The translations under genes and the position numbers were made by a program. The notes beneath the pieces are model-generated. The model was not told the DNA's origin and did no database searches. It saw only the letters and a list, made by a program, of their open reading frames with translations. Shown here in pieces: positions 19,112-27,846 of a DNA stretch of 64,000 bases. Position 1 is the first letter of the stretch. Each line of letters begins with the position of its first letter. Source of the stretch: Candidatus Avelusimicrobium intestinipullorum (GTDB lineage Bacteria; Elusimicrobiota; Elusimicrobia; Elusimicrobiales; Elusimicrobiaceae); NCBI GenBank assembly GCA_944324635.1, contig CALUXC010000004.1:62001-126000 (forward strand). The letters run 5' to 3'.

Positions 19112-22100
19112 TTACGGCACCAAAATCTTGACTACTTTCTGGCAGTGTTCGCGGCCGTTTTGGGCTTTGAAATCTACCAACCCGAAGTATACACCGCGGG
19201 CTACCTTTTTACCATGCTGGTTGGTGCGGTCCCAGCGGCAGCGCAAGGCTGCGTTGCGGATGTTGGGGAATGCCGCCAAATCATCTTCGTCCATCTGGGT
19301 AGAGCCGTTCGGCGTGTTATCCGGGTTGAACTGCAGGCTGCTGCCCATGGTAATCTGGTAGTTGTTCGCGTCCACACAGGTATAGTTGCTGTCGCGTACC
19401 AAGTCGCCCGCCAAGTTGAAGAACTTGATAGATACCGTTCCGGGCACGGGCATCTTGGTAATTTCCAGCGTACCTTTGGAAGCGTCGCGCAGCGGGTTCG
19501 GATAGAAGAATACCGTTTTCTCCCAGTCTTCGCAGACGAAGCGCCCGTCACCGATAGCCACCGTCGCCTTATGCAGGTTCTGGTATTCATAGGTATCGGC
19601 TACTTTATCAATGCTCCACAGCTGGCTGTTGGTGCTGGCATCGTCTCCGCCCAAGATTTCACCGGTCACGCTGTCGATATCGGCGGAGTTGAGCGCCGTT
19701 ACGAAGCGGAAGGGATAAGTCCCGTCCGGCACTTCTTGTTGGGCATAGTCGCGGCCGTCCCACAATTCTTCAATCAGCGTGGTAGCGGGGCGGATACCCA
19801 CAATGGCTTTCACCAATACTTCGCGGATATCTTTCACTTCCGTACCCGTCGTGGGGTTACGCAAGGTACCTTTTTGGTAATCGTAAATCGTCGTACCGGG
19901 TTTGAAGATTTGGATAGCCACTTTCATCGGAACAGAAATCTGGTAGCCAATCTTCATGTCCGTATTGCGCTGGGACAGGGCATAACCGTCCGCTTCCAGC
20001 AAGTCGAACACTTTAAGCAAGTCCGCATTGACCGTGACGCTCTTGACCGTTTCCTGATACAGGCCCGGATCCGGATAGTTCTTCGCAATCAAGCGGATTT
20101 CATAAATGCCCGGTTTCACATAGATACCGTTGTTATCCGTACCGTCCCAGTAAATCTTGCGGGTAACGTTCGGATCAAAATCGCTGGTGTTGACAATCGT
20201 CATCGTGGAGAGGTATTTGCAGACCTCGCCCGCGGAGGTATTGCGCTGAGTCAGTTTGCCGCTCGTGCCATAGCACATATTGGGTTTCAGGGCCACCACA
20301 GCCACTTCCACGGTAGACGCACGGGACACCGCAAAGTTAATTTCATACGGCGGGATAAACACCGGGCCCGAAGACGCATTGAACAACTGCGGAGAGTTCG
20401 GGTACACCACCACGGAACCGTCCAAGAAGTACACGGGACCGCGAGTAACGTTGATTTTGCTGACCGGTTTTTCCGTCGCATACAAGAAATCTTGCCGCAT
20501 TACCTCGGCCGCCGTTTTGAACGGAGCGCCAGGCAAGTAGTTCGCTTCCGGATTGCTGCCGGCAATTTTTTCGCCGCCGTTGGCATAGTAGCGGTTGAAC
20601 GCTTCGTCCGAGCGAGCAGAGATAAAGAACGGATATTGTCCGTCCGGCACCATTTCGTAGGGGCACTGTTTGAGATCCGTCGCACCCGTGCACTTGGCAA
20701 TTTCCTGCGCCGTGTGGCGTTCGGTAGACGGAGTCGGGTTATAGAAGTACAGCGCGTCCCATTCTTCGGTGATCTGCAACCCGTCACCCACTTTGGTAGC
20801 GGAGCGATCAAACGTTTTGACCGGCTGCAAGCGCACGTCCACCACACCGGAGGCCGCTTCGGCCGCCGTTTTGGGGTAGTTGGTAAACGTCGTATCGTTT
20901 ACATAGATACAAGCATTTTTAGACGTTACTTTCGCAGGGTCCACATACCCGCCCGTAAAAATAGCAGCATCGGTCGTCGCGTCGCAAATGCGGGGCGGCC
21001 AAGCCGTGGCCGTATTGGTCGTCACGTTCACGGTTTCACGTTTCAACGTAACGACATACTGTTCTTCACCCGGCACCACAGAACCCGTCACAAAGTTCGG
21101 GTTTTCCGTCACCGTGATGGTATCGCGGGTATACGGGTTATTGGAACCCGTCAAAGTGGTTACCGTTCCCAAGGCCAAGTTGGTCAACGCAATGGGCGCG
21201 GTGCTTCCCTGTTCATACACATTGGCAGACGCGAGCGAATTGGTATAGCCCGTGGCCAACAGAGAAGAAACGACCGTGTAATCATTATAATCGCCGGTTG
21301 TAGAATTGTAAGCCGGGATCACCACATCCTTATTATAGATGTTGATCTGCACGTTCATCGCTTTAGACAACATATAGGATATGGTCGCTTTGGCCTCGCT
21401 GTCGCCATATACGTCCGTAGTGGCAACGTCCACCACACGGTACATATCCACCGGGAATACGGCAGAGGCTTTATTGGTTACCGCGGGGAACATGGCGTCT
21501 TTGGTCTCCACGGTAAACATATAGGTACCGGGGGTGACCATGCGGCCTTGATCGTCGCGGCCGTCCCAAGACAAGGTGTTAAGCTGTTGAGCTACCTGCG
21601 TGACGCCTTCTTCGGGCGTTAAGTGTTTCACCGGCACGCCGGCAGCGTTTTCCACGCGCGCCACAACCGTAGAATCGCGCACGATGGAATATTTGAAAAT
21701 GAACGGATCCAAACCGTAAGCCGTCGGGCTGGAACCAACCGTGGAATAGCTGACGGGCTGAATGGTGATATCCACCAAACCGCGTTCAATCGCCACCTGA
21801 CCAACGGAGTAGTTCTGCGTTTTCACACCCGTGAAGCACTGTCCGTTGATTTCTTTATCGGCAGAAAAGTTATTTTGACCGGTTGCGGCTGTTCCGCAAA
21901 CAGCCTGGCTATAAAATACCGGTGTATTATCGTTGCCGCCTACGGCATTTAAGTATTTACCGTTGTAGGGGATTTCCGCCCACAGCACGTACACATAGTT
22001 ACCGTCCGGCATGGGCGCACCATAAGCAAAGCTCTGCGTGCAGCCGGCTTGGGTGGTACAAGTGGTTCCGTCAGACATCTTTTCATTATAGGCATACGTG

Positions 22101-23884
22101 CGGACACAGCCATTCGGATGATACTTACAACCAGCATCCACATCACATGTACCGGCCAGAGGAGCCCCTCTGTCATCTACCGCATTAGCGGGATAGGTCG
22201 CTCCTTTGGGAAGCGTCAAAGTCATGCTTGTATTCAAGCCGCACAGACCGTCCCATCTAGAGGTAAAGTTCATGCGGGCGGTGCGGTCTTCTTCCGAGCG
22301 GTACACCAGCGTTCCGCCCACAGGGGTCGGGCCGGTACCCGTAGGTTTGGAAGAATCGGTCACCAAATCCGTAGCGGTAGAAGCCCCGTCAAAAGAAGTA
22401 CCGGGAGTATAGATTTCCCAATACACTTTAGAAGCTTCCGTGGGAACATAGTTAATAGAGGCATAAGCCGTAGATTTTTTGTTCAAGCCGGTAGCCACGA
22501 TATCCGTCAGTTTGAGCGGATCAAGCGATACCTGGCGCGTAACGGCGCGGGAGAAGTCCACCCCCGGCCATTCGTCTTGCGCTTTGGCCTGGATAGAGGC
22601 AATATAGTTACCCGCCGGCAACAGCAAACCGTTATCGTTGCGGCCGTCCCAAGAATCGAATTCCACAATTTGTTTATCGGCTTCGGTTCCTTTCATGCCT
22701 TCGCCAACGCGCGGCTGCCAATCAACCAACGTACGCACTTTCTGCGTCGCTTCCAATTCACCATCATTCGTATCGCCATACTTAATATCGTCTCCGTTGG
22801 ACGCGTCAAAAATAGCGACGCGGACATCGGAATCTTTACTTAACCGATAGGCGAAAGTGTAGGGCTGGGCAGATACGGCCGTAATGTTACCCACCACGGT
22901 AGGCGTACTGCGTACGGAATGCACATTCGTCACGTCCACCTGTATCGGGATTTGGTTCATACCCGGGTAGGCAATCGTGGAGTTAAACTCAATTTTGTCC
23001 GTGATGATATTGTCACCAGGCGAATCGGTAGAAACGGTAGCGCGGTAGGCGAAGTTTCCGTTGGATTTACCAAATTCGCCACCGATTTCGTAAGAACCGT
23101 CCCACGCCGCACAGAACGTAATGGGCTGGTTAGAAGGCGTACCGTCATCGTTGAAAATCACATAGTTACAGCTCTTGTTAGGGCAGTTGGTATCATTTAA
23201 TGTGGTGCTGCACTGCCCAGGAGCGGGAGTATTTGTTCCAAAATGATAACAGGTAGAACCGCGCAATTCATATTTCGGAGCCGGGCACACATAGCCGGCA
23301 TTGGCATCGCCGGGGCAGTGGTAAGAACCGCAAATAGCAGCGTCATTTTCCGTATCCGGATACAAGTCAATCGTGCGCACGGCCGGAGTTTCTTCCGGGT
23401 TTTCTATATTTTTACCATTGTAATACTTAACAATATCAAACTTAATTTGCTGAAGAGGGAAAGCAATAGAGTAGGTACTCTGCGACATGGGCTTGTTGGT
23501 GCAATACACTTGCATACACAAAGACAAACAATGGTTCGGATAGTTGTTTGGCACCTTCGGAGAAGGATAGGGCTGATCATACTCAATCAGGGCAGAGCTC
23601 ACCCACGGATCATTTTGATTAGCATTGCTGGACGGATTTACTTTCGTTGTAAAGCTAACGTTGTTATTATCCGACACAACAGTGTTTCCCCAATTGCAAT
23701 AAACTTGGTCATCGCCCGAGGCATTATTTTGATAATACACACCGGCAGAACGTACCTCAGCCGTTTGGGCAAACAGCGGCGAAGACGCCGCGAAGAGCAA
23801 CGCGGTTAAAACGGCGCAAAGCGCCGCTTTACCCAGGAAAACCCGAAGTAAACTTTTTACTTTATTCATTGTGCAAGTATCCAT
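19112..23884 (-). CDS. Giant secreted repeat protein with FlgD-like Ig modules and a C-terminal sorting-type domain
   Basis: About 1590 residues with a signal peptide (MNKVKSLLRVFLGKAALC onward, ending near SSPLFAQ). The body repeats a FlgD-type immunoglobulin module, marked by WDG..D..G....PG.Y, at about residues 415, 549, 778, 1047, 1250, 1377 and finally 1550. The N-terminal 300 residues are Cys-rich and carry many Asn/Pro turns. The last 130 residues (FYPNPLRD, then VSIKFFNLAGDLVRD, then ARGVYFGLVDF, ending KVVKILVP) match the pattern of type IX-like C-terminal sorting domains. Possible starts are TTG 23896, ATG 23884 and ATG 23869; 23884 fits the AGAAGGGAA site best. It heads the tad locus and is probably a surface adhesin or stalk protein (inference). 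Confidence 0.85.
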   Translation of the reverse strand: MDTCTMNKVKSLLRVFLGKAALCAVLTALLFAASSPLFAQTAEVRSAGVYYQNNASGDDQVYCNWGNTVVSDNNNVSFTTKVNPSSNANQNDPWVSSALIEYDQPYPSPKVPNNYPNHCLSLCMQVYCTNKPMSQSTYSIAFPLQQIKFDIVKYYNGKNIENPEETPAVRTIDLYPDTENDAAICGSYHCPGDANAGYVCPAPKYELRGSTCYHFGTNTPAPGQCSTTLNDTNCPNKSCNYVIFNDDGTPSNQPITFCAAWDGSYEIGGEFGKSNGNFAYRATVSTDSPGDNIITDKIEFNSTIAYPGMNQIPIQVDVTNVHSVRSTPTVVGNITAVSAQPYTFAYRLSKDSDVRVAIFDASNGDDIKYGDTNDGELEATQKVRTLVDWQPRVGEGMKGTEADKQIVEFDSWDGRNDNGLLLPAGNYIASIQAKAQDEWPGVDFSRAVTRQVSLDPLKLTDIVATGLNKKSTAYASINYVPTEASKVYWEIYTPGTSFDGASTATDLVTDSSKPTGTGPTPVGGTLVYRSEEDRTARMNFTSRWDGLCGLNTSMTLTLPKGATYPANAVDDRGAPLAGTCDVDAGCKYHPNGCVRTYAYNEKMSDGTTCTTQAGCTQSFAYGAPMPDGNYVYVLWAEIPYNGKYLNAVGGNDNTPVFYSQAVCGTAATGQNNFSADKEINGQCFTGVKTQNYSVGQVAIERGLVDITIQPVSYSTVGSSPTAYGLDPFIFKYSIVRDSTVVARVENAAGVPVKHLTPEEGVTQVAQQLNTLSWDGRDDQGRMVTPGTYMFTVETKDAMFPAVTNKASAVFPVDMYRVVDVATTDVYGDSEAKATISYMLSKAMNVQINIYNKDVVIPAYNSTTGDYNDYTVVSSLLATGYTNSLASANVYEQGSTAPIALTNLALGTVTTLTGSNNPYTRDTITVTENPNFVTGSVVPGEEQYVVTLKRETVNVTTNTATAWPPRICDATTDAAIFTGGYVDPAKVTSKNACIYVNDTTFTNYPKTAAEAASGVVDVRLQPVKTFDRSATKVGDGLQITEEWDALYFYNPTPSTERHTAQEIAKCTGATDLKQCPYEMVPDGQYPFFISARSDEAFNRYYANGGEKIAGSNPEANYLPGAPFKTAAEVMRQDFLYATEKPVSKINVTRGPVYFLDGSVVVYPNSPQLFNASSGPVFIPPYEINFAVSRASTVEVAVVALKPNMCYGTSGKLTQRNTSAGEVCKYLSTMTIVNTSDFDPNVTRKIYWDGTDNNGIYVKPGIYEIRLIAKNYPDPGLYQETVKSVTVNADLLKVFDLLEADGYALSQRNTDMKIGYQISVPMKVAIQIFKPGTTIYDYQKGTLRNPTTGTEVKDIREVLVKAIVGIRPATTLIEELWDGRDYAQQEVPDGTYPFRFVTALNSADIDSVTGEILGGDDASTNSQLWSIDKVADTYEYQNLHKATVAIGDGRFVCEDWEKTVFFYPNPLRDASKGTLEITKMPVPGTVSIKFFNLAGDLVRDSNYTCVDANNYQITMGSSLQFNPDNTPNGSTQMDEDDLAAFPNIRNAALRCRWDRTNQHGKKVARGVYFGLVDFKAQNGREHCQKVVKILVP

Positions 23885-23924
23885 TTTGGGGACCAATTTC
23901 CCTTCTCAAAAATTAAGTTTTTAC

Positions 23925-24087: not shown

Positions 24088-24106
24088 AAAAGAGAAACTC
24101 TCTTTT
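24088..24106 (-). terminator. AT-rich hairpin at the end of the diguanylate cyclase gene
   Basis: AAAAGAGA (24088-24095) pairs with TCTCTTTT (24099-24106) around a 3-base loop and overlaps the TAA stop. A loose T-rich stretch follows on the minus strand. It separates the GGDEF transcript from the tad locus. Confidence 0.5.
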
Positions 24107-25604
24107 ACGCGGCGGCCTGGTCGGCCACTTCGCGGTAAACGGCAAAGCTGCCGCGCCCGTTTTGTTTCACCACGTACAACGCCTTATCCGCTTTTTCCAA
24201 AAGCACGTCCGGCGTTTCTCCGTCAAAGGGGAAAGAAGAAATTCCCTGGCTGATGCTTAAATGCACTTCTTTGCCTTCGGTATAGCGGTCCGGCAAGGTA
24301 ATGGCACGGATGCGCTCCTGCAAACGCTTGGCGATGATTTTGGCTTCCTCGCCGTTGGTGCGCGGGAGCATAATCACCATTTCGTCCCCCCCGAATCGGC
24401 AAGGGACGTCGGTCTGGCGCAGGCTGGTGCGAATCACGCGGCTGACTTCTTTAAGCGCCCAGTCGCCAATTTGGTGGCCATATCCGTCGTTAATTTGTTT
24501 GAACAAGTCAATATCCATAATAATCAGCGACAGGGTCAAATCAAAGCGTTTGGACCGGTAAATTTCTTCGGCGAATTTTTCGTTGAAGTAGCGGCGAACC
24601 GGCAGTTTGGTCAGTTCGTCATAGTTGGAAAGTTCCTGCACGCGTTCAAACAGGCGGGCATTGTCAATAGACAAGGCCATCTGCGACGCAAACTGTTGCA
24701 GGGAAATAAAGTCCATATATCCAATGCGGCGGCGGGAAAGAATATTGTCAAACGCCAAAAACCCCACCTTATTGCGCTGCACCTTAAGCGGAATATAGAT
24801 AACACTGCGGGTAGAGCGGTAGGTGGCCGTGGAGTCAAACACTTCTTTTAGCAAATGACCTTCCCCTTCGGGCAAAGTTTTTCCGTCCTGCTGGGTGACT
24901 TTGCCGGAAATATCCACCCCCAACACGGATTTAATTTTGCTTCCTTCCGAGTCCGTCAAATACAGGCGCACCCGGTCAAAACGGAAGTAACGCTGCACTC
25001 CTTTCAAAATGAGCTCCAATCCGTCGTTTAAGCGCAGCGAAGAAGCAAAAATGGTGGACAAATCGTTTAACGCCGTGGAAATATTAAGCCGCTGGTTTTT
25101 GGCCTGGTCTATTTCCGTATTGCGCAAATTGTGGGAAATTTCCTGCCCCAGGGCTTTAATGAGTTCTTTTTCTTCGTTGGAAAAAACACGATTCTTGCGG
25201 AAGCGTTCCAAGCGCAGCACCCCTACTTTTTCCTGCATAAAGTTGTGCACTTCGCCTGCTTTTAATTCCACGCTGGGGCGTTCCCATTTCACCAGCACAT
25301 AGATGGCGGGATAGCTTAAATCGGTAGATTCGGTAATGCCGGTTTGCAACAGCTGTTTTAAGAAAACGGGTTCATTAAGAACGGAAATATCTTCCTGCAT
25401 ATCCATGCAGTACTCTTTTTTGCACATCATTTTAAGCGACAATAGGGCCCGCTCCTGCTGCCAGTCAAAAAAATACACCCGGTCCAACTTAAACAGGTTA
25501 CGCAAAGCCGGCAAGGCACATTCCAGCAGTTCGCGCTTGTCCTGGAAAGACTGGTTTAGCTGTTTATGAAATTTATAGAGCGTATAGGATTTTTTATCAA
25601 ACAT
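24105..25604 (-). CDS. Diguanylate cyclase with two GAF-like domains
   Basis: A soluble 499-residue protein. Two GAF-like sensory regions (about 15-160 and 170-315) precede a GGDEF domain (about 335-490). The active-site loop is RFGGDEMVI, an accepted GGDE[FM] variant, and the inhibitory I-site RQTD stands five residues before it, so the enzyme should make cyclic di-GMP and be feedback-inhibited. There is no signal peptide or membrane helix. The gene follows the solute-binding-like gene by 4 bases, so the two are translated together, and it stands next to the tad locus, which cyclic di-GMP often controls in other bacteria (inference). Confidence 0.92.
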   Translation of the reverse strand: MFDKKSYTLYKFHKQLNQSFQDKRELLECALPALRNLFKLDRVYFFDWQQERALLSLKMMCKKEYCMDMQEDISVLNEPVFLKQLLQTGITESTDLSYPAIYVLVKWERPSVELKAGEVHNFMQEKVGVLRLERFRKNRVFSNEEKELIKALGQEISHNLRNTEIDQAKNQRLNISTALNDLSTIFASSLRLNDGLELILKGVQRYFRFDRVRLYLTDSEGSKIKSVLGVDISGKVTQQDGKTLPEGEGHLLKEVFDSTATYRSTRSVIYIPLKVQRNKVGFLAFDNILSRRRIGYMDFISLQQFASQMALSIDNARLFERVQELSNYDELTKLPVRRYFNEKFAEEIYRSKRFDLTLSLIIMDIDLFKQINDGYGHQIGDWALKEVSRVIRTSLRQTDVPCRFGGDEMVIMLPRTNGEEAKIIAKRLQERIRAITLPDRYTEGKEVHLSISQGISSFPFDGETPDVLLEKADKALYVVKQNGRGSFAVYREVADQAAA

Positions 25605-25608
25605 AGGG

Positions 25609-26814
25609 CTACCCCTGATAAATGGAAAGCAGATATTCTATTTCTTTGGCGGCCAGGTCCAATTCCCGGTCCAGCGAGGCCTGCGTAAAGCGGTTCTCCA
25701 CAATCTGCGTGGCGCACACGGCCAAAATACGCTTTAAGATTTCCATAATCGTGCCCGTGACGGTGATATTGGGCAGTGTACGGGCCGAGGCCAAAATGTT
25801 GCTGTAAGTTTGCAGCCGCTGAGAAGAGGAAAAGATGAATTGTTCAAAAGCATCATCAAACGCAGGGAACGCGTCTATCATAGCCGCATAGCGGAGCTGA
25901 TTATCCGGCCGGGCGCAGAATTTAATAAATTTAAGCGCGTTTTTCTTTTCCTGCGAGAGCTTATTGATAAACAAATTCATGCCCGACAAGTACGAATAAT
26001 AGGTGGTACCCGTCGTCGGTACCGGCAGGGTGCGCACGCGTATGCCGCGCCGCGCGTTGAAGGTGCTTACGCCCTGTTTGCGGGAAATCATCATACTGGC
26101 TTTGCCGGAAACAATCGTCCCCAGAGAGCCGCGTTCGCGCAAAATGGGCATATAGTTTTTTAGGGCCAAATTTACGTAATCGCGAATGCCTTCCTTAAAC
26201 GCCTTGGTGCCCACTAACGTAGTCCCCAAATCGGCCGACAGCAAATCCCCGCCGCGGCCCCAAATGCAAGGCAGCGCATTGCGCACGGAAAGCGAACCGC
26301 GCCAATCGCTGTTTTGCATGGGATAATAGCCGGGGGTATCTTTGAATTGTTCGCGCAGGGCCTGGCAGATGTTTAACAACCCGTCCCAAGTAGCCAAATC
26401 GTGTTCGGGCTTGGCGGTAACCAATTTCAAATGGTCCGCCCGGTAATGCAGGGCGCTTAAATCAAACCACCACGGATAGGAATAGATGTCTTTGGTTCCG
26501 GGCTGATAGCAGTGCGGCTTAAGAGGAACCAAACAATTGGATAGCGACAGGCCCGGATCCAACTGGGACAAATTTTCCGCCACGCCTTCGCGCACCAACA
26601 GCGCCGTCCAATAATGCGGGATCTGAATCAAATCCGGCACTTCTTCTTCGTAAGTCGGGTTTTTAATGGTGAACATCCGCCGCCACAGCACATTGCGCGT
26701 AAACACGCGCACGGTAACGTCCACGGACGGGTTTTCCTTCTTAAAAAGCTCAATCAGCGAAGCGTAAACCTCTTTGGTTTTATCGCCCGAATCGGGCATG
26801 GCCCACAAAAGCAT
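25609..26814 (-). CDS. Extracellular solute-binding-like protein lacking a signal peptide
   Basis: A 401-residue protein with the fold pattern of family 1 (sugar) ABC binding proteins: MLLWAMPDSGDKTKEVYASL at the start, PDLIQIPHYW, YSYPWWFDLSALHYR, and FIKFCARPDNQLRYAAMIDAFP. Binding proteins of this class normally carry a signal peptide or lipobox. Here the ATG is placed by AAGGAG five bases upstream, and the tsaD stop is inside that leader, so nothing precedes the mature-like sequence. The protein should stay in the cytoplasm. No transporter permease or ATPase is nearby; the partner gene is the GGDEF enzyme 4 bases downstream. It may be a ligand sensor for that enzyme (inference). Confidence 0.82.
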   Translation of the reverse strand: MLLWAMPDSGDKTKEVYASLIELFKKENPSVDVTVRVFTRNVLWRRMFTIKNPTYEEEVPDLIQIPHYWTALLVREGVAENLSQLDPGLSLSNCLVPLKPHCYQPGTKDIYSYPWWFDLSALHYRADHLKLVTAKPEHDLATWDGLLNICQALREQFKDTPGYYPMQNSDWRGSLSVRNALPCIWGRGGDLLSADLGTTLVGTKAFKEGIRDYVNLALKNYMPILRERGSLGTIVSGKASMMISRKQGVSTFNARRGIRVRTLPVPTTGTTYYSYLSGMNLFINKLSQEKKNALKFIKFCARPDNQLRYAAMIDAFPAFDDAFEQFIFSSSQRLQTYSNILASARTLPNITVTGTIMEILKRILAVCATQIVENRFTQASLDRELDLAAKEIEYLLSIYQG

Positions 26815-26826
26815 CTAAACTCCTTC

Positions 26827-27846
26827 TTAATCCCAGCTGCGCACTTTCATGTTGGGATTAATGTCTATATTCTTTTTTATTGGTTTACCGGTTTTTTCGG
26901 CGTGTTCCAGCTGTTTATAAGCGGCCAAGGCAATCATGGCGGCATTGTCCGAAGACAATTTCCGTTCCACAAAATGCACTTCAATTCCTTCTTTGGCGGC
27001 GGTTTCTTGCATGCGTTCGCGCAAAAGCGTATTGGCCGCCACCCCGCCGCCTACGGCGATATGGCGCACTTTGTATTTTTTGGCCGCCAGCAGCGTTTTG
27101 GTCACCAAGGTTTCCACCATGGCTTCTTCAAAGCTGGCACACACGTCCGGAATGCTGAAATCTTTATGGTCGCGCAGGTAATAGCTTACGGCCGTTTTGA
27201 TACCGCTAAACGAAAACTCCCACGTACCGGGCAACAAAGGACGCGGAAAAGCGATGGCGTCTCTGCGGCCCATAAGCGCCTGTTTGGACACCTGCGGCCC
27301 GCCCGGATAGGCCAGGCCCAGCAGTTTTGCCACTTTATCAAACGCTTCGCCCGCGGCGTCATCGCGCGTTTTCCCGAGGACTTTATAATCTCCATATCCT
27401 TTCACGTACCACAATTCGGTGTGTCCCCCCGAAACGACCAAAGCCACCAGAGGGAACTGCAAGCGGTTTTTCGCTTCCGTGCCTTCAAAATCGCACGCAA
27501 AAATGTGCCCCTCCAGGTGGTTTACTCCTAGTATAGGGACTTTTTTGAAATTTGCAAGGGTTTCCGCCGCCACGCGCCCCACCATCAGCCCGCCGGGCAG
27601 CCCGGGGCCGCTGGCAAACGCCACATAATCCAAGGGGTGATCGCCCAAGGCTTCGTTGATGACGGTGGCAATTTTGGCCGCATGGGCGCGGCTGGCCAGT
27701 TCCGGCACGACGCCGTGATATTTTTTGTGTTCGTCTATCTGGGAATAAATCACATTGGTAACGATTTCCTTGCCGCCTTTTAACAAAGCGGCGGAAGTTT
27801 CGTCGCAGGTGGATTCTATGCCCAAAATCATTAAATCTTTTTTCAT
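26827..27846 (-). CDS. tsaD: TsaD, tRNA N6-adenosine threonylcarbamoyltransferase subunit
   Basis: This is a universal tRNA-modification enzyme that, with TsaB and TsaE, transfers threonylcarbamoyl from threonylcarbamoyl-AMP to A37 of tRNAs reading ANN codons. It shows the family start GIESTCDETSAALL, metal-binding His residues in ELASRAHAAKI (near 60), GPGLPGGLMVG, the ATP-site VSGGHTELWYV and VGGGVAANTLL. The length of 339 residues is standard. It lies 3 bases after the carboxy-terminal protease gene. Confidence 0.97.
   Translation of the reverse strand: MKKDLMILGIESTCDETSAALLKGGKEIVTNVIYSQIDEHKKYHGVVPELASRAHAAKIATVINEALGDHPLDYVAFASGPGLPGGLMVGRVAAETLANFKKVPILGVNHLEGHIFACDFEGTEAKNRLQFPLVALVVSGGHTELWYVKGYGDYKVLGKTRDDAAGEAFDKVAKLLGLAYPGGPQVSKQALMGRRDAIAFPRPLLPGTWEFSFSGIKTAVSYYLRDHKDFSIPDVCASFEEAMVETLVTKTLLAAKKYKVRHIAVGGGVAANTLLRERMQETAAKEGIEVHFVERKLSSDNAAMIALAAYKQLEHAEKTGKPIKKNIDINPNMKVRSWD

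Follow-up and report, generated by a model that had tools for sequence, protein, structure and literature searches.

A signal-less sugar-type solute-binding protein is paired with a soluble diguanylate cyclase in Elusimicrobiota and is probably an internal nutrient sensor

The 64,000-nucleotide stretch of Candidatus Avelusimicrobium intestinipullorum that we analysed (the window; assembly GCA_944324635.1, contig CALUXC010000004.1, positions 62,001 to 126,000) comes from a gut-type Elusimicrobiota genome of 1.57 Mb that is 92.6% complete. Four genes follow one another on its minus strand, in the order S41 protease, tsaD, a solute-binding protein (SBP) and a diguanylate cyclase (DGC). The last two are the subject of this report. 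An initial annotation, made from the letters alone, had read them as a ligand-binding protein kept inside the cell as a sensor for the synthesis of cyclic di-GMP (c-di-GMP). The features of the pair and its upstream neighbour are as follows, in window coordinates.

25609 to 26814, minus strand: SBP, 401 residues, CUT1 sugar type (SBP_bac_8/SBP_bac_1), from Pfam, PDB sequence matches and Foldseek
26815 to 26817, minus strand: in-frame TAG codon immediately 5' of the SBP ATG, read from the sequence
26820 to 26825, minus strand: AAGGAG ribosome-binding site of the SBP gene, read from the sequence
26695 to 26697, minus strand: SBP residue R40, equivalent to Trp41 of the Thermus beta-glucoside-binding protein, from alignments
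25618 to 25644, minus strand: SBP C-terminal tail, residues 391–399, family-specific motif E-x-x-Y-L-L-S-x-Y, from alignment conservation
24105 to 25604, minus strand: DGC, 499 residues, soluble, GAF-GAF-GGDEF, from Pfam and NCBIfam TIGR00254 (2e-47)
25146 to 25538, minus strand: first GAF domain of the DGC, residues 23–153, from a profile–profile match to the second GAF
24660 to 25022, minus strand: second GAF domain, residues 195–315, Pfam GAF_3 (3.4e-9) and GAF (1.9e-5)
24150 to 24626, minus strand: GGDEF domain, residues 327–485, Pfam (1e-43)
24378 to 24419, minus strand: I-site RQTD and active-site GGDEM, invariant residues in aligned DGCs
26827 to 27846, minus strand: tsaD, upstream operon neighbour outside the pair (TIGR03723)

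The SBP gene runs from an ATG at 26814 to a stop at 25609, with the tsaD stop 12 bases upstream and the DGC ATG, at 25604, 4 bases beyond its own stop. No leader peptide or N-terminal extension is possible on the window SBP because the in-frame TAG directly precedes its ATG. A hidden or mis-called signal peptide is excluded by the same codon, and the relatives are concordant. The mature fold starts at once, its first strand forming the N terminus (MLLWAMPDSG...), behind the strong AAGGAG site, much as the initial annotation had described it. That annotation had also noted the lack of a transporter nearby, and there is none among the six window genes that we scanned with Pfam.

Pfam assigns the SBP to SBP_bac_8 (1.8e-15; 58 bits, cut-off 27) and SBP_bac_1 (4.2e-13; 50.4 bits, cut-off 26). 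The closest PDB sequences are exported SBPs for beta-glucosides and cello-oligosaccharides (7c6f, 5e-29; CbpB, 7x0i, 1e-19), and other close solved relatives bind cellodextrin and beta-1,2-glucan oligosaccharides (including 5ysb). A structural model built on 52 aligned rows (the window and 51 of the 57 loci of a named collection, relatives of 65–95% identity) reached a predicted local distance difference test score of 68 and a predicted template modelling score (pTM) of 0.63. Its top Foldseek matches were sugar SBPs (best 7c68, E 3.7e-18), with poor superposition at root-mean-square deviations of 8–9.

The partner has the GAF-GAF-GGDEF architecture first proposed for it. Pfam detects the GGDEF domain and one GAF domain; the first GAF of the window protein lies below Pfam detection, but a profile comparison aligns it with the second over 113 columns (P 5.4e-5), and it falls in the region that matches GAF_2 (8.3e-6) in the family member at locus L212. 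R396, D399, G405, G406, D407 and E408 are invariant across 26 aligned DGCs, the guanine-contact residues N372 and D381 are canonical, and RxxD-x5-GG[DE]E occurs in 159 of 171 DGC-bearing loci (redundancy included), every one of the 159 with the guanine-contact N and D. In most relatives M or I, not F, occupies the fifth position of the signature. The protein carries all the signature residues of a c-di-GMP synthase and is a predicted cyclase. Hypr enzymes, which make cGAMP, have Ser at the second guanine-contact position, and the Asp found there (D381) rules out a cyclase of that type. The most hydrophobic stretches that we found in the DGC are GAF strands, not the N terminus, and Pfam detects no EAL domain in it.

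Calling export from hydrophobicity and reading frames, we found no recognisable signal peptide in the SBP family at any locus, with upstream candidate starts inspected. In some members alternative starts lie as far as 41 residues upstream, and the added stretch is charged, proline-rich or mere overlap with tsaD. Signal peptides in homologues would have spoken against the initial annotation; none was seen, whereas six exported SBPs of the same phylum, all weak matches, have obvious hydrophobic leaders. In three of the six, at L214–L216, the exported sugar SBP lies within a single frame of 757–778 residues, and the L215 protein combines, by Pfam, an SBP and a permease (BPD_transp_1) in one chain. 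For comparison of residues, 192 full-length SBP loci (redundancy included) were thinned to 87 representatives. In a 51-row tree (43 of these representatives and 8 exported proteins), all cytosolic SBPs fall on one side of a branch and the exported ones on the other, with a Shimodaira–Hasegawa-like approximate likelihood ratio test (SH-aLRT) value of 97; a 37-row tree (27 and 10) gives the same split with a value of 96.

The SBP is widespread. Single-sequence searches found it in 59 of 61 genomes, and a 36-sequence profile (cut-off E 1e-10) in 176 of 340 Elusimicrobiota genomes, including 142 of the 149 in the order Elusimicrobiales (85/90 in the window's family, 57/59 in a second family). Each of the seven genomes missed in the order is less than 90% complete, more than 5% contaminated, or both. 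To count the pair, 98 genomes were opened, chosen from the 176 with profile matches plus four of family f11: 35 from the window's genus, 10 from the family's other genera, 27 from the second family, 24 from other families of the class and 2 from other classes. In 96 of them the SBP and DGC genes are adjacent on the same strand with the DGC downstream. The remaining two (G042 and G179) show no pair, their contigs stopping 360 and 327 bases past the SBP, and in G001 and G105 a contig break divides the SBP gene, the pair being visible on one of the contigs. The named collection, which overlaps the 98 genomes and is not added to them, has the pair at 56 of its 57 loci and a contig end at the other. 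Because the arrangement is kept in 96 of the 98 genomes, with the other two undecidable, it lies far beyond chance; it reaches across families and classes to pairs whose SBP identity is about 20%, and in the window's family the two genes are mostly 2–4 bases apart. The search for the same gene pair in relatives, which the initial annotation had called for, came out in its favour.

Twelve weak or partial outer SBP matches were left out of this count. Five are SBPs with hydrophobic leaders (G063, G067 and G332, at L216, L214 and L215; G236 at L180; G243 at L177), one partial match (G183) has the DGC, another (G161) has its contig cut inside the SBP, and five were not opened (G066, G069, G071, G166 and G242).

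A reverse search used a DGC profile (E 1e-60) on 27 genomes: 20 negative for the SBP, and 7 pair-bearing genomes as positive controls. Fourteen of the 20 had no DGC match either. The other six comprise three f11 genomes with strong matches, a fourth f11 genome (G173) with a weaker one, G181, whose strong match lies at the end of a contig, and G065, whose match is a generic GGDEF. All four f11 genomes turned out to have a highly diverged SBP gene just upstream of the DGC, which the initial SBP search had missed. These genes overlap the DGC start by 4 bases, their products begin M(V/I)(I/V)WL without a leader, and they match the SBP profile weakly, at 25–43 bits; neither of the two that were scanned has a Pfam match at E 0.1. 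The reverse search found no DGC ortholog without an SBP-like neighbour, apart from the one at a contig end.

These data bear on the idea that the two proteins work independently and are merely co-transcribed in a conserved tsaD operon. S41 protease, tsaD, SBP and DGC do stay together in the order, with tsaD directly upstream of the pair wherever the contig reaches. However, the pair persists without tsaD upstream at the class-level loci L203 and L206–L210 and at the deepest loci, L211 and L212, and some of these have glycosidase-like or transporter neighbours instead. Hitch-hiking in the tsaD operon as the sole cause is ruled out by this persistence, and the failure to find the DGC ortholog away from an SBP-like neighbour also argues against independence, which we regard as quite improbable.

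Membership of an SBP family also raises the option of transport, with the SBP leaving the cell by a non-classical route or working with a permease encoded far away. The window's genome holds only two PF00528 permeases, located with two oligopeptide ATP-binding cassette (ABC) ATPases, and, at its 92.6% completeness, no sugar ABC permease. Exactly two PF00528 matches occur in 77 of the family's 90 genomes and none in G113, G114, G117 and G124; the last three have the SBP, and G124 is 92% complete and carries the pair (L184). Given the oligopeptide permeases in the window's genome and the pair in permease-free G124, a transport role for the SBP in these organisms is predicted to be very unlikely. 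The initial annotation had counted ABC permeases beside homologues as a point against an internal sensor, and here the outcome is divided: there are none in the window and none of sugar type in its genome, and in two deep-branching genomes of other classes they lie directly upstream of the pair, in operons that run on one strand from a lipoprotein SBP through two BPD_transp_1 permeases to the cytosolic SBP and the DGC.

L211, 3511 to 10967, and L212, 3643 to 9387: sugar ABC-importer operons with two SBPs (lipoprotein and signal-less), followed by a DGC

The L211 operon additionally holds a gene for a major facilitator superfamily sugar transporter after the lipoprotein SBP. Because each operon has its own exported SBP, we read this adjacency as pointing to the origin of a sensor rather than to transport, and with no leader in any member of the family we put the chance of a transport component very low indeed. 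The lipoprotein SBPs of the two operons are distant from the cytosolic SBPs in the tree, which rules out their recent duplication as the source of the latter. Other carbohydrate-related neighbours are a glycoside-hydrolase-like gene upstream of the SBP at L206 (Pfam Glyco_hydro_2_C) and, judged by eye, a glycoside-hydrolase-like gene directly or closely upstream at the f11 loci L240–L243. Together these neighbours suggest that reading imported sugar inside the cell was the pair's original task; the sensor probably arose next to a sugar ABC importer and survived its loss.

The binding pocket has changed within the family. PDB titles record mutants of the Thermus beta-glycosides-binding protein at W41, W67, E117 and W177. 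The equivalent of W67, W69 of the SBP, is present in 85 of 87 representatives, and position 118 (E117 in Thermus, D118 here) is D or E in 82. Position 40, equivalent to W41, carries R or K in 69 representatives, among them every one of the 68 from the order; the 8 cytosolic members that branch deepest retain W, the other 10 have P, A, E or Q, and 5 of 6 exported SBPs of the phylum have W. A basic residue in place of an aromatic one suggests an altered, perhaps negatively charged, ligand, and since tryptophan became arginine or lysine in the Elusimicrobiales pocket, that ligand may be phosphorylated, for example. The C-terminal tail is conserved in its turn (E391 in 81 representatives, Y394 in 72, L396 in 81, S397 in 75 and Y399 in 73), with Y394, Y399 and E391 ranking 15th, 22nd and 30th among 401 positions. 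The motif is also kept in SBPs of other classes and was not seen in the six exported SBPs of the phylum. We propose this tail as a candidate dock for the DGC.

We consider it rather probable that the cytosolic SBP is a ligand sensor that controls its partner DGC by contact, the two forming one intracellular signalling unit. Descended from an exported sugar-binding protein, the SBP would stay in the cytosol and close on a cytosolic sugar or sugar derivative. In its closed or open form it would dock on the GAF region of the DGC, probably through the C-terminal tail, and switch the DGC dimer on or off, such that c-di-GMP would track the internal supply of the ligand. Such a sensor would have begun beside a sugar ABC importer and been retained once the importer was lost, and in Elusimicrobiales the move of the pocket from tryptophan to arginine or lysine would suit a charged ligand, such as a phosphorylated one. 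All of this combined, an ancient cytosolic SBP that outlived its importer, a contact-controlled cyclase, and a pocket that in gut Elusimicrobiota is now fitted to an anion (for example a sugar phosphate delivered by the phosphotransferase system, PTS), is a scenario to which we give only a modest chance.

Several observations weigh against the contact-controlled sensor, besides the permeases at L211 and L212. Adjacency of the SBP and DGC genes is linkage, not contact, and an AlphaFold prediction of the SBP–DGC read-through fusion on 19 rows reached a pTM of 0.32, with no interface that could be used. Nor is the pair universal, because several high-completeness genomes of the class are without it: G061, G068, G168 and G169 have neither the SBP (E 1e-10) nor the DGC ortholog, and G065 has no SBP match at that threshold and only the generic GGDEF match. 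In G164 (L220) the SBP is shortened to 376 residues and we found no GGDEF motif in the partner; this pair looks decayed. Finally, the pocket tryptophan of the C-lobe is replaced by T, Y or M, and with the aromatic pocket residues partly lost (W41 to R/K being the other case), ligand binding by the SBP is uncertain.

The last point leads to a different role for the SBP, which might no longer bind a small ligand and serve as a structural or allosteric partner of the DGC, a scaffold or activator, with the signal entering through the GAF domains. Position 40, running over the phylum from W through P/A/E/Q to R/K, would fit such a drift, as would the drop in SBP_bac scores, from around 100 bits for deep members to 44–58 for the order, and the two f11 SBPs without a Pfam match; a protein activator of a DGC is known in SiaC–SiaD (7e6g, PDB title). 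W69, P114, W115, W116, D/E118 and N280, however, are conserved in 69–87 of the 87 representatives, and this weakens the scaffold explanation because such a set of conserved residues exceeds the needs of a mere scaffold. We hold it to be unlikely, if far from negligible.

Other c-di-GMP components of the window's genome are a REC-GGDEF protein, one dCache-GGDEF-EAL protein and one PilZ protein. The dCache-GGDEF-EAL gene (L223:169–4233, contig C5) adjoins a PTS EIIC-EIIB sugar transporter gene on the same strand at 111 bases. An Rfam scan of the window found no c-di-GMP riboswitch, its sole match being a tRNA. Directly downstream of the DGC (19112–23896, minus strand) lies a gene for a 1594-residue secreted protein with FlgD-Ig repeats, as it does at many loci of the window's family; this protein is a possible surface target of the c-di-GMP circuit.

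Taken comparatively, the pairing, the lack of export signals and the conservation across a large part of the phylum support the initial annotation's idea of an internal sensor for c-di-GMP synthesis. On sequence evidence, the pair is ancient and joins known parts in a new way, a sugar SBP without a signal peptide with a dedicated soluble cyclase, and Elusimicrobiota probably keep this SBP inside the cell as an internal nutrient sensor of an undescribed kind; neither the abstract openings of the open-licence papers returned by our searches nor the passages of PMC9602780 describe a cytosolic SBP–DGC pair. The enzymes of c-di-GMP metabolism are among the most numerous bacterial signalling proteins, and the input of most is not known. 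Across a large part of a phylum, the pair gives one cyclase a candidate input protein, and it lets the turning of a transport receptor into an internal sensor be followed, which is rarely possible. Because annotation readily takes signal-less SBPs for transport proteins, similar pairs may be going unnoticed elsewhere.

Several known systems offer comparison. The closest solved relatives, the Thermus beta-glycosides-binding protein (7c6 series) and CbpB (7x0i), belong to the same family at 20–24% identity in structure matches; unlike the Elusimicrobiota SBP they are exported transport proteins, with W41 where Elusimicrobiales have R/K and without the C-terminal tail motif. SgrR of Escherichia coli is a transcription factor with an SBP-like sensor domain in the cytosol that responds to sugar-phosphate stress, in one chain and from another SBP family. 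AmiC, the Pseudomonas amide sensor, has a type I amide-binding fold. According to PMC9602780, single-domain cytosolic proteins with SBP-profile matches form a recognised minority that has other functions. In NspS–MbaA, a polyamine-sensing system of Vibrio, an SBP controls a GGDEF enzyme, from the periplasm (PMC8967002, in its account of that system). There the SBP is periplasmic and its partner an inner-membrane GGDEF-EAL protein, whereas both Elusimicrobiota partners are soluble and free of export signals; with no SBP signal peptide and a DGC that has neither an N-terminal hydrophobic stretch nor an EAL domain, the pair is not of the NspS–MbaA type.

Nearer in logic are two intracellular systems. 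According to PMC3795266, NasS is missing the NrtA signal sequence and has a predicted cytoplasmic location; it binds NasT and releases it on nitrate. As here, a signal-less SBP homologue is encoded next to its partner, a regulator that NasS controls. AmiC, mentioned in PMC3795266 and cited in PMC9602780 (reference 28) for cytosolic SBP-like proteins, is a single-domain SBP-like sensor bound to its effector, AmiR, within the cell. The differences lie in the nitrate SBP family of NasS and in the outputs, an RNA-binding ANTAR antiterminator for NasT and antitermination for AmiR versus c-di-GMP here. With a GAF-GAF-GGDEF effector and an SBP of SBP_bac_8, the pair falls outside both families proper. 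What it shares with them is the arrangement of a cytosolic SBP sensor pair, a signal-less SBP adjoining its effector gene and conserved in 96 of 98 genomes, and by this analogy it most likely works like NasS–NasT or AmiC–AmiR, with a new output.

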